A stretch of 35,640 nucleotides of DNA from Bacillota bacterium (GTDB taxonomy: Bacteria; Bacillota; UBA4882; UBA10575). Positions 29,340 through 33,527 of the stretch are shown here, piece by piece. The position numbers and the translations under genes were made by a program. The notes under the pieces were generated by a model. That model saw nothing but the letters and a program-made list of their open reading frames with translations, was not told where the DNA came from and did not search any database. How positions within the stretch are numbered: position 1 is the stretch's first letter; every line of letters begins with the position of its first letter. The DNA lies in assembly GCA_012838955.1 (NCBI GenBank), contig DUOH01000058.1, positions 1 to 35,640 on the forward strand, read 5' to 3'.

Positions 29340-29483
29340 ATGCCGGGGAAATTCACCCTAATTACCCAGGGATTAAAACAGGCCTTGGCGGATGAAATCA
29401 CCGGCTATGATGGTTGGAACGAACCGTGTGAAGATGTATTAAGTCAGGGGGAACTGCGCCTACTGTACGGAATACCCATGTGA
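29340..29483 (+). CDS. Possible small protein of 47 residues, not recognised
   Basis: An ORF starting with ATG at 29340 encodes MPGKFTLITQGLKQALADE, then ITGYDGWNEPCEDVLSQGEL and RLLYGIPM. It ends 4 bases before the hydrolase-like gene starts, an arrangement suggesting co-translation. The only upstream purine site is the weak GGAGACGG directly before the ATG. It has no visible signal peptide or membrane segment and no family I recognise. It could be a genuine small protein, the displaced N-terminus of a longer ancestral gene, or chance. Confidence 0.3.
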   Translation: MPGKFTLITQGLKQALADEITGYDGWNEPCEDVLSQGELRLLYGIPM

Positions 29484-29487
29484 TCTG

Positions 29488-30597
29488 GTGAGAAAACCAT
29501 TTATCAAATCACCGGAGAACAAAGTATTGCTTGATGGTTTACGAGAAATATGCAGAATTAGCAGTGAACGAAGTTCTTCCAGGGGGCGATTCCCGGTGGA
29601 CAACACTTTACGCCACTTTATTCAGGCGGAAAAATTCAGCGGCAATATCCTGATTGCCCGGAAGGGAAAGGTGATTCTGCAAGAATCTTATGGTTATGCC
29701 GATGAAGGCAAGAAGATCCCCAATACAATTGAGACCCGCTTTTGCGTAGGCGACATTCAGCAGTCCATGACGGCCTTGTGCATTATGAAACTGGTGCAAG
29801 AGGAGAAGCTAAGGTTGACTGATCATATCGACTGGTTTTTCAACCATCTCTACTCGGGTCGGCAGATCACCGTTCATCACCTATTAACTCATACTTCAGG
29901 CATTAGAAACCACCTTTCCCTTAGGGAATTCAAAGACGGCAAGAACCATGTCATCTCCGAAGTCATCAAAAAAATGGCGGAGCGTCCTTTAGAGTTCAGC
30001 CCGGGAGAGCGGTTTTTATATAGTAATACCGGTTATGCCTTGTTAGGAACGATCATAGAAAAAGTTACAGGAAGGAATCTGCAAGACTACATCCGGGCCA
30101 CGATCTTTACCCCTCTAAAGATGCGGGACTCTTTTTTTGTCGGGGAGACCGTCGAGAATTTGGCCAAACCAGCCAGGCCTCTGTATGCTTGTCAGCCGGG
30201 CCTGCTATACGCTTCTGGGGCTTTAATTTCTACTGTAAGGGATTTATACCGGTATGATCAGGCTTTATATGGAGACAAGCTGGCGGAGAGGAGACTGATC
30301 GAAGAAATGTTGAAGCCTTTTTATAAAGGCAGATTTATTGAATATGGTTACGGATGGTTCATTAAGCGCCTCTTCGGGCAGAGAAGCGTTGTCGCCCATA
30401 ACGGCTTTCATCCGGCGGGTCATTCAGCCCACCTGGAAAGGTACGTGGACGACCGGACTACTATTATCGTGGTCTCTAATAAACTGCAGAGATATTCCGG
30501 CTTGGGTTGCAAAAATCTAAACAGTACGGACCTGGCCAGGGAATTGGCGGCCAGGATTTATGGGAAGAAGGTCCGGTTCTGGCAGAAGTGGTATTAG
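29488..30597 (+). CDS. Beta-lactamase/penicillin-binding-fold protein lacking the SxxK nucleophile (probable pseudoenzyme)
   Basis: A 369-residue protein of the class C beta-lactamase/serine-hydrolase (DUF-like AmpC/EstB) superfamily. The fold is evident: FSGNILIARKGKVILQESYGYAD, HHLLTHTSGIRNHL, the Tyr motif YSN (178-180) in FLYSNTGYALLGTIIEKVTG, and a C-terminal HNGFHPAGHSA. The catalytic segment, normally F-x-IGSITK-x-FTA, reads FCVGDIQQSMTA: Ser is Asp89 and Lys is Gln92. Thus both catalytic residues are missing in an otherwise intact frame. No signal peptide is visible. It may be a binding or sensing protein. The GTG start has no strong ribosome site and is uncertain. Confidence 0.85.
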   Translation: MRKPFIKSPENKVLLDGLREICRISSERSSSRGRFPVDNTLRHFIQAEKFSGNILIARKGKVILQESYGYADEGKKIPNTIETRFCVGDIQQSMTALCIMKLVQEEKLRLTDHIDWFFNHLYSGRQITVHHLLTHTSGIRNHLSLREFKDGKNHVISEVIKKMAERPLEFSPGERFLYSNTGYALLGTIIEKVTGRNLQDYIRATIFTPLKMRDSFFVGETVENLAKPARPLYACQPGLLYASGALISTVRDLYRYDQALYGDKLAERRLIEEMLKPFYKGRFIEYGYGWFIKRLFGQRSVVAHNGFHPAGHSAHLERYVDDRTTIIVVSNKLQRYSGLGCKNLNSTDLARELAARIYGKKVRFWQKWY

Positions 30598-31033: not shown

Positions 31034-32800
31034 ATGAATGAAAACCGTGCTAGCAGCGGAGGGTGGGAATCTGACGTGACCAGCGTTTATGTTTTAAAAA
31101 ATCTCCTTAGCAATATGAGTCTACTTTTACTGATCGCCTATTTTTTGTCAAAGACAGAGAACTTTAAGAATTTGGTTACCGGGCAGAAAGACACCTTGGC
31201 CAATAAATTGAAGATGGCTATAGTATTTGGGATGATTGGCATTTTAGCAACTTATACGGGTGTTTCCGTTAAGGGCGCCTTAGCCAACTCCAGAATTATC
31301 GGTGTTTTAGTAGGCGGACTCTTCGGCGGGCCGGTAGTGGGCTTGGTTGCAGGCTGTATCGCCGGGTTTCACCGCTGGGCCATTAATATCGGTGGGTTTA
31401 CTGCAGTGGCTTGCGGTGTCGCCACGGTAGTTGAGGGTATGGTCGGCGGGATAGTTTCGCAACGCTTTAAAAAAGCCCAAAATAACTGGGCTTATGCTTA
31501 TTTTGCCGGGATGTTCGCGGAAATTTTGCAGATGGGCATCATTCTGGTTTTGGCCAAGCCAACTACTGAAGCCTGGGAGTTAGTGAAGATTCTGTGGGTA
31601 CCTATGGTAGTCTTTAATCCGGTGGGGATCTCCTTGTTTGTAGGATTCATTAACGGGATTTACAAGGAAAAGGAGGAAGAGGCCGCTCTGCAAATGAAAT
31701 TGGCCTTGGACATTGCCGACCGGTGTCTTGGTTACTTACGTAAAGGACTTGCCAACCCGGAGATTGATGAGGTGGTAAAGATTATCCTTGACATGTCCGG
31801 TGCTTCCGCAGTGGCAATTACCGACCGTAAGCAGATCTTGGCCCATGCCGGTACTGGAGAGGATCATCATCATGCGCAGACCCCTATTTTGACTGACTTG
31901 ACGAAGAGGGCTATTCGGACCGGGACGATGGTTGTCGCCAACACCAAAGCGGAGATTGGGTGTTTGGACTCTGAATGTAGGCTAAAGTCGGCGGTACTTG
32001 TCCCTTTATGGAGACGAGAGGAAGTAATCGGTGTACTCAAAATGTACCTGGATCGGGAACATGCCATCTCGGATGTGCATATTACACTGGCACAGGGCTT
32101 GGCCAGGCTCTTTTCTACCCAATTGGAACTTGCTGAGATCGAATACCATAAAAAGCTGCGGCAAAAAGCTGAATTAAAGGCTTTACAATCCCAGATTAAC
32201 CCGCATTTCCTATTTAACGCCTTGAACACCATTATCGCCGCGTGCCGGGATAAACCTCAACGGGCCAGAGAATTATTGCTCAGCCTCAGTACCTATTTTC
32301 GAAACACACTGGCGCATACGGACAGTTTTATCCGTCTGGACGAGGAATTGAAGATGATCGAGGCTTATTTGGATTTAGAAAAGGCCAGATTCGAAGAGAA
32401 GCTGAAAGTGATTATAGAAGTGCCTGACGAGGTTAGAAGTTTTTTGGTGCCGCCCTTTATCTTACAGCCTTTGGTGGAGAATGCAGTCAAACATGGAGTT
32501 CTGCCCATGGAAGATGGGGGCGTGGTATCAATCATTGCCAGGAAGGGTGAGGGGGATATTCAAATCTGCATTGAAGACTCTGGGGTCGGTATTAGAGCGG
32601 AAACCATTCGCAGACTGAATACAGATCAGATGCCTGAGCAATGTGTGGGCTTGATTAATGTGCAGAAACGTTTGAAAAAGTTATATGGTGAGGGTTATGG
32701 ATTAAGAATTCGTCAAAAAAACCATGGAACTCTGGTCATGTTAAAGATTCCGGACTGGGTGGAGGGGGATTTTCTCAATGCTGAAGCTGTTGATCGTTGA
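31034..32800 (+). CDS. LytS-type sensor histidine kinase
   Basis: A 588-residue sensor of the LytS/BtsS family. Several hydrophobic segments (about 20-40, 60-110, 120-140, 155-175, 185-210) form the 5TMR-LYT membrane sensor. A GAF domain follows (about 225-365) with a Cys pair in GCLDSEC and an HHH stretch at 278-280. The kinase domain has the phospho-accepting His391 in QINPHFLFNALNTI and the ATP-binding VENAVKHG (Asn483) and EDSGVGI. The start may instead be GTG 31076, which GGAGGG precedes. It overlaps its response regulator by 23 bases. With CstA downstream it resembles the E. coli pyruvate-sensing BtsS/BtsR-BtsT. Confidence 0.93.
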   Translation: MNENRASSGGWESDVTSVYVLKNLLSNMSLLLLIAYFLSKTENFKNLVTGQKDTLANKLKMAIVFGMIGILATYTGVSVKGALANSRIIGVLVGGLFGGPVVGLVAGCIAGFHRWAINIGGFTAVACGVATVVEGMVGGIVSQRFKKAQNNWAYAYFAGMFAEILQMGIILVLAKPTTEAWELVKILWVPMVVFNPVGISLFVGFINGIYKEKEEEAALQMKLALDIADRCLGYLRKGLANPEIDEVVKIILDMSGASAVAITDRKQILAHAGTGEDHHHAQTPILTDLTKRAIRTGTMVVANTKAEIGCLDSECRLKSAVLVPLWRREEVIGVLKMYLDREHAISDVHITLAQGLARLFSTQLELAEIEYHKKLRQKAELKALQSQINPHFLFNALNTIIAACRDKPQRARELLLSLSTYFRNTLAHTDSFIRLDEELKMIEAYLDLEKARFEEKLKVIIEVPDEVRSFLVPPFILQPLVENAVKHGVLPMEDGGVVSIIARKGEGDIQICIEDSGVGIRAETIRRLNTDQMPEQCVGLINVQKRLKKLYGEGYGLRIRQKNHGTLVMLKIPDWVEGDFLNAEAVDR

Positions 32801-33527
32801 GGATGAGGCGTCGGCCAGGAAGGAGTTGCGGTACTTAATCGAGGAAGCGTCATCTTCTGTAGAGAGGCTGCAGATTTGGGAGGCGAAGAATGGACGAGAG
32901 GCTCTGGAGATAGTTGCCGAGTACGACATTGACGCCGCTTTTATCGATATTAATCTAGGCGATGTGAAAGGAACAAATTTAGCGCAAGAACTCGTGCAGT
33001 TCCGGAAAAATCTAAAGATCGTTTTTGCTACTGCTTATGATAAATACGCGGTCGAAGCCTTTGAGCTTAACGCTTTGGATTACATCTTAAAACCCTTCGA
33101 GCCTGAACGGGTGCGACTGGCCTTAACACGGATCGAGAGTTCGTGCGCGAATCCGGAGGAGACACGTGATAAAATCTCTCGGATCGCCGGAGAGATACGA
33201 AAGTTATCTGTCTGGAACGGGGATCGGGTGCTGCTGATTGAGATCGATCAGATCGTCTTTATTACTACTGCCGACCGGAACTGCCGGATCTGTACTCTAC
33301 AGGGAGTTTACTACACTAATCAGCCTTTGACCTATTTTGAGCAGAAGTTTACAGATCATAGTTTTATGAGGGTGAATCGGAGTTATCTTGTTAATCTCGA
33401 ACAGATTGTGGAGATCTTACCGTGGTTTAACCATTCCTACCTGTTGAAGATGCGCGGTTATGAGCAAGAAGAGATTGTGATTAGTAGGAAAAAGATCAAA
33501 GATTTCCGGCTGTTATTCGATTTTTAA
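32778..33527 (+). CDS. LytTR-family response regulator
   Basis: A 249-residue regulator. The receiver domain (1 to about 120) has the acidic pocket VEDE, the phosphorylatable Asp57 in FIDINLGD, TAYDKYAVEAFELNALDYILKPF with Lys105. The C-terminal LytTR DNA-binding domain (about 140-249) reads RVLLIEIDQIVFITTADRN, FMRVNRSYLVNLEQIVEILPWFNHSYLLKM and ISRKKIKDFRLLF. The 23-base overlap with the kinase gene shows they are a matched pair, with cstA the likely target. Confidence 0.94.
   Translation: MLKLLIVEDEASARKELRYLIEEASSSVERLQIWEAKNGREALEIVAEYDIDAAFIDINLGDVKGTNLAQELVQFRKNLKIVFATAYDKYAVEAFELNALDYILKPFEPERVRLALTRIESSCANPEETRDKISRIAGEIRKLSVWNGDRVLLIEIDQIVFITTADRNCRICTLQGVYYTNQPLTYFEQKFTDHSFMRVNRSYLVNLEQIVEILPWFNHSYLLKMRGYEQEEIVISRKKIKDFRLLFDF

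Follow-up and report, generated by a model that had tools for sequence, protein, structure and literature searches.

On the forward strand of the window (the whole analysed stretch of 35,640 nucleotides), positions 29488-30597 hold an open reading frame of 369 codons which starts with GTG and contains no internal stop codon, and the earlier statement that the frame is intact was therefore correct. Comparison of its product with the PF00144 profile gave an E-value of 1.9e-53 and a score of 182 bits (gathering cut-off 27), with a match spanning profile positions 3-312 of 329. The codon usage of the gene is normal in comparison with the other genes in the window. The encoded protein carries DxxQ in place of the SxxK motif and is referred to here as the DxxQ protein.

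The frame at 29488-30597 is the longest one starting with GTG. A second GTG at 29596 is preceded by AGGGGG and has a predicted ribosome-binding duplex of -9.8 kcal/mol, compared with -3.5 kcal/mol for GTG 29488. In the alignment, homologous cytosolic proteins start close to the position that matches GTG 29596. Because of the stronger ribosome-binding site and the start of these homologues, GTG 29596 is probably the true start, which gives a likelier coding sequence at 29596..30597 (+) for a protein of about 333 amino acids. The Pfam domain begins at residue 39 of the longer frame, and residues 1-40 were predicted at lower confidence in the structural model (block means 54-74). Just upstream, in a different frame, lies a small open reading frame of 47 codons (29340-29483, +) with no significant family match, and comparison with Rfam gave no match for an upstream RNA element.

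Genomic neighborhood and cellular location

The ybjQ gene (PF01906; 30622..30945, +) lies 24 bp downstream of the DxxQ gene, and is followed by a pair encoding a LytS-like protein (5TMR-LYT, GAF and His_kinase domains) and a LytTR response regulator (31034..33527, +). These are the neighbors named in the preliminary description. The association is not conserved: ybjQ and lytSR are themselves conserved in relatives, but in the other genomes examined neither adjoins a gene of this kind. The stretch between the DxxQ gene and ybjQ showed no terminator-like site, so co-transcription of the two is possible, which says little about function. Among the genomes compared, conserved gene order points to no partner or ligand.

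Neither a signal peptide nor a membrane segment was found in the open reading frame or in the 15 in-frame codons upstream of it. The peak hydropathy over 15 residues was 0.83 for the N-terminal region together with these upstream codons, compared with 2.0-3.1 in the exported homologues L007, L147, L096, and L035. From its sequence, the DxxQ protein is read as cytosolic. A role in sensing wall fragments, which had been considered for the protein, is weakened by the missing export signal and by the unconserved YbjQ/LytSR neighborhood.

Replacement of the catalytic dyad in a fold predicted to be intact

The segment FCVGDIQQSMTAL aligned without gaps to the helix that bears the SxxK motif (consensus FRIGSxTKQFTA), so that F-C-V-G-D89-I-Q-Q92-S-M-T-A pairs with F-R-I-G-S-x-T-K-Q-F-T-A. 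Asp89 (codon GAC, 29752..29754, +) occupies the position of the nucleophilic serine (S89D) and Gln92 (codon CAG, 29761..29763, +) that of the general-base lysine (K92Q). Serine and lysine are present at these positions in 87 of 87 homologues. The preliminary description had paired GDIQQSMTA with GSITK-FTA and had claimed the replacement of both residues; the replacement stands, while the gap disappears. The conversion of serine and lysine codons into GAC and CAG requires at least three nucleotide changes, two of them in the serine codon, and therefore one sequencing error cannot account for the DxxQ motif. Inspection also spoke against a shifted catalytic motif, CIMK at residues 98-101, as it lies nine residues farther along the helix, where the homologues have ordinary residues.

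The change is confined to the dyad. Twelve alignment columns are invariant in the 87 nearest homologues, and the DxxQ protein differs from them at two, the serine and the lysine. Likewise, a reference set of 34 SxxK homologues, which includes the nearest relatives, has 23 columns with a conservation of at least 95%, and the DxxQ protein keeps 21 of them, those of YSN and HNG included; the exceptions are again S89D and K92Q. SxxK was found in 90 of the 92 other PF00144 loci of related genomes, as well as in every member of the genome-collection set with a readable motif. Since both residues required by the established mechanism are absent, the loss of classical SxxK chemistry, as read from the sequence, is nearly certain.

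The remaining motifs correspond to those of active relatives. Motif 2 of the SxxK acyltransferases, [SY]x[NT], is represented by YSN (Tyr178-Asn180; 30019..30027, +), the Tyr and Asn of which are invariant in the homologues. Motif 3 has been defined as [KH][ST]G (PMC2266909); the homologues compared here have HxG, and the DxxQ protein matches them with HNG (His304-Gly306; 30397..30405, +). The DxxQ protein keeps the histidine and glycine of this motif; the middle position, here Asn, varies among homologues. After HNG comes F-H-P-A-G-H, where the DxxQ protein has one residue more than most homologues. The HTSG segment (residues 135-138) is also kept. The view that the protein is otherwise well preserved, including YSN and HTSG, agrees with the 21 of 23 near-invariant columns retained. 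In the alignments, an insertion follows the conserved S-N in the last core strand (region 30481..30525, +); it is common to the DxxQ protein, L209, L210, and the L159/L204/L205 group and is missing in typical homologues.

A structure prediction, proposed in the preliminary description, was made with AlphaFold2 from 53 sequences and reached a pLDDT of 88.1 and a pTM of 0.86. The model matched Pab87 from Pyrococcus abyssi (Protein Data Bank entry: 2QMI) with a Z-score of 39.7 and an rmsd of 2.4 over 323 residues, and a D-amino acid amidase with a Z-score of 38.3; DD-peptidases, esterases and LACTB scored slightly lower. On the basis of the confident model and these structural matches, the serine beta-lactamase/DD-peptidase fold of the DxxQ protein is expected to be intact.

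Relatives, recurrent active-site change and evolutionary rate

A scan of the GTDB representative genomes with the single protein found no relatives, and in an alignment-based GTDB scan no relative among the matches listed exceeded 38% identity. The best matches in other genomes have 33-39% identity and keep SxxK. The other genomes of the same family that were compared contain no comparable copy, just distant paralogues of about 30% identity. The nearest relatives, L209 and L210 from two species of one genus, were recovered with a profile built from L159 and its orthologues and are 39% identical to the DxxQ protein over 319 columns. Neither has a signal peptide; SxxK, YSN and HGG are present in both, as is the insertion that follows the SN motif. 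A second cytosolic PF00144 group consists of L159, L204, and L205 (genomes G778, G795, and G787 of one genus). In this group motif 2 is Cys-Asn-Asp or Tyr-Asn-Asp, the histidine of motif 3 is lost (Tyr-Ser-Gly in the alignment), and motif 1 is SxxE in one member and SxxK in two. The tree joined the DxxQ protein with L209/L210 (90/72) and next with the L159 group (94/86), both with moderate support.

Homologues sharing Asp and Gln, a search for which had been suggested earlier, were found in no second genome among about 1,400 whole genomes and two GTDB scans (in one of these, among the matches listed). Since the nearest relatives, which are also cytosolic, keep SxxK, the change to Asp and Gln appears from these alignments to be private to this lineage among the genomes compared. 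The paralogue L003 was at one point a candidate for a further protein without SxxK and was rejected, because the profile alignment gives SVAK.

Other inactive-looking sites were present in the family. The lipoprotein-like proteins L220 and L224 (G853 and G822, two species of one genus) form a conserved inactive-looking pair; SxxS and FSN are common to both, and they are 60% identical with a dN/dS of about 0.23. L204 and L205 have Cys for Tyr and Asp for Asn at a dN/dS of 0.14-0.16, and for L159, L204, and L205 as a set dN/dS was 0.14-0.35. These sequence comparisons show that PF00144 proteins of Bacillota have lost catalytic residues on several independent occasions, with purifying selection acting on two or more of the lineages concerned. 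This makes a selected non-catalytic role plausible here, though unproven. Two further proteins were noted. The multi-domain PF00144 protein L215 (G1063) has ExxK, with Ser replaced by Glu and the lysine kept. L028 (G021) has ExxR and an eroded look, with 13 of 28 near-invariant positions changed, and is a candidate for true decay or for another role.

Relative-rate tests against L209 and L210 revealed no acceleration of the DxxQ lineage. The counts against the SxxK sister L209 with six outgroups were 46:38, 34:46, 34:32, 33:40, 39:36, and 31:39 (all p > 0.2), and the end branch of the DxxQ protein was 0.94 in comparison with 0.78 plus about 0.07 (about 0.85) for the sister. According to the preliminary description, relatives that all have SxxK together with relaxed selection in this copy would mean simple decay: the nearest relatives do have SxxK, but relaxation is not seen in the relative rates. 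In a simple neutral codon model the probability that both residues are lost while no stop codon arises and ten invariant residues are kept peaked at about 7e-4. This calculation argues against a long decay and still allows a short one, because it was made post hoc, ignores indels and is blind to where on the branch the loss fell.

Proposed role, alternatives and comparison with known systems

The preservation of the protein around a replaced dyad is best explained by a selected non-catalytic role in binding or regulation, to which we give a probability of about 0.56. The DxxQ protein would then be a cytosolic PF00144 pseudoenzyme folded like an SxxK acyltransferase/hydrolase, with the pocket-lining Tyr-x-Asn and His-x-Gly motifs kept. 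The formation of an acyl-enzyme would be blocked, as Ser, the nucleophile, has given way to Asp, and Lys, the activating base, to Gln. Most likely, a ligand or a partner protein would still be bound in or near the pocket, and selection would maintain the protein for this binding or regulation instead of hydrolysis. Such a role, already proposed in the preliminary description, is favored by the sole change at the dyad, the predicted fold and the absence of a rate excess. The SxxK motif of the nearest relatives speaks against it, and it is favored rather than proven because no orthologue with Asp and Gln was found.

The same SxxK relatives would be expected if an ordinary cytosolic enzyme had recently lost its dyad by drift and had not yet accrued further damage. 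The restriction of Asp and Gln to this genome among those compared is consistent with such an early decay, as are the same-family genomes without a comparable copy, in which the gene is evidently dispensable. However, drift that altered both codons should usually leave stop codons or broken invariant positions, and none was seen; the lineage has no rate excess, and the eroded relative L028 looks quite unlike the DxxQ protein. Early decay is regarded as the main rival explanation, possible but rather unlikely. A change of chemistry is considerably less probable still. Here a new catalytic or metal-binding site would be built from Asp89, Tyr178 and His304, perhaps with the extra His308 and His312 as well. 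In favor of it are the retained pocket residues Tyr, Asn, and His and the extra histidines in the loop after HNG (one of which replaces the Phe of 48 of 52 aligned homologues). Yet these residues were found in no relative, and we know of no member of the PF00144 family that uses Asp at the nucleophile position. Finally, the genome is a draft of 67 contigs, and both codons might be artifacts of sequencing or assembly; this is very improbable, since such an error would have to produce at least three separate base differences across the two codons and leave the frame otherwise intact and the codon usage normal.

The non-catalytic role may extend beyond this protein. Tentatively, and with some doubt, a cytosolic branch of Bacillota PF00144 proteins may have turned into binding proteins. 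Its separate lineages would have dropped different residues of the active site, namely Ser and Lys in the present one and Tyr, Asn, His and in one case Lys in the L159 group, with selection preserving the fold. If this is true, the branch would be a group of sensors or regulators with the beta-lactamase fold that has not been reported before. Serine hydrolase or beta-lactamase is the routine annotation for PF00144 proteins, and under it the DxxQ protein would be mis-annotated as an enzyme. A search of the open literature found no description of inactive PF00144 proteins, although such proteins may have been described elsewhere. If the binding role is real, one of the best studied folds in bacteria would gain a use without catalysis, and the repeated loss of catalytic residues in Bacillota PF00144 proteins is directly open to biochemistry.

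In comparison with known systems, the DxxQ protein is rated as an orphan PF00144 pseudoenzyme. It has the fold, the domain boundaries, YxN and HxG in common with the PF00144 (MEROPS S12) enzymes, which include Pab87 (2QMI), alkaline D-peptidase (4Y7P), R61 DD-peptidase (3PTE), EstB (1CI8), DltE, FmtA, and LACTB. Those enzymes have SxxK and many are exported, whereas the DxxQ protein has DxxQ and no export signal. L209/L210 and L159/L204/L205 resemble it more closely in the lack of a signal peptide, the insertion after SN, the extra residue after HxG and the full-length alignment, but DxxQ is present neither in L209/L210, with their SxxK, YSN and HGG, nor in the L159 group, with its altered motifs 2 and 3 and one SxxE. 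For the changed chemistry discussed above there is a precedent in MamO of magnetotactic bacteria, a serine protease fold reported to be repurposed for transition-metal binding (PMC4794232); MamO is unrelated to the DxxQ protein in fold and pathway. CspC of Clostridioides difficile is a pseudoprotease with two replaced catalytic residues that acts in germinant sensing (PMC6636752). It has the subtilisin fold of an unrelated family and its function was shown genetically, whereas the DxxQ protein is known from sequence and a model. Both combine a bacterial hydrolase fold with the replacement of two catalytic residues, and CspC, a soluble sensor, might by analogy rather than kinship illustrate how the DxxQ protein works.
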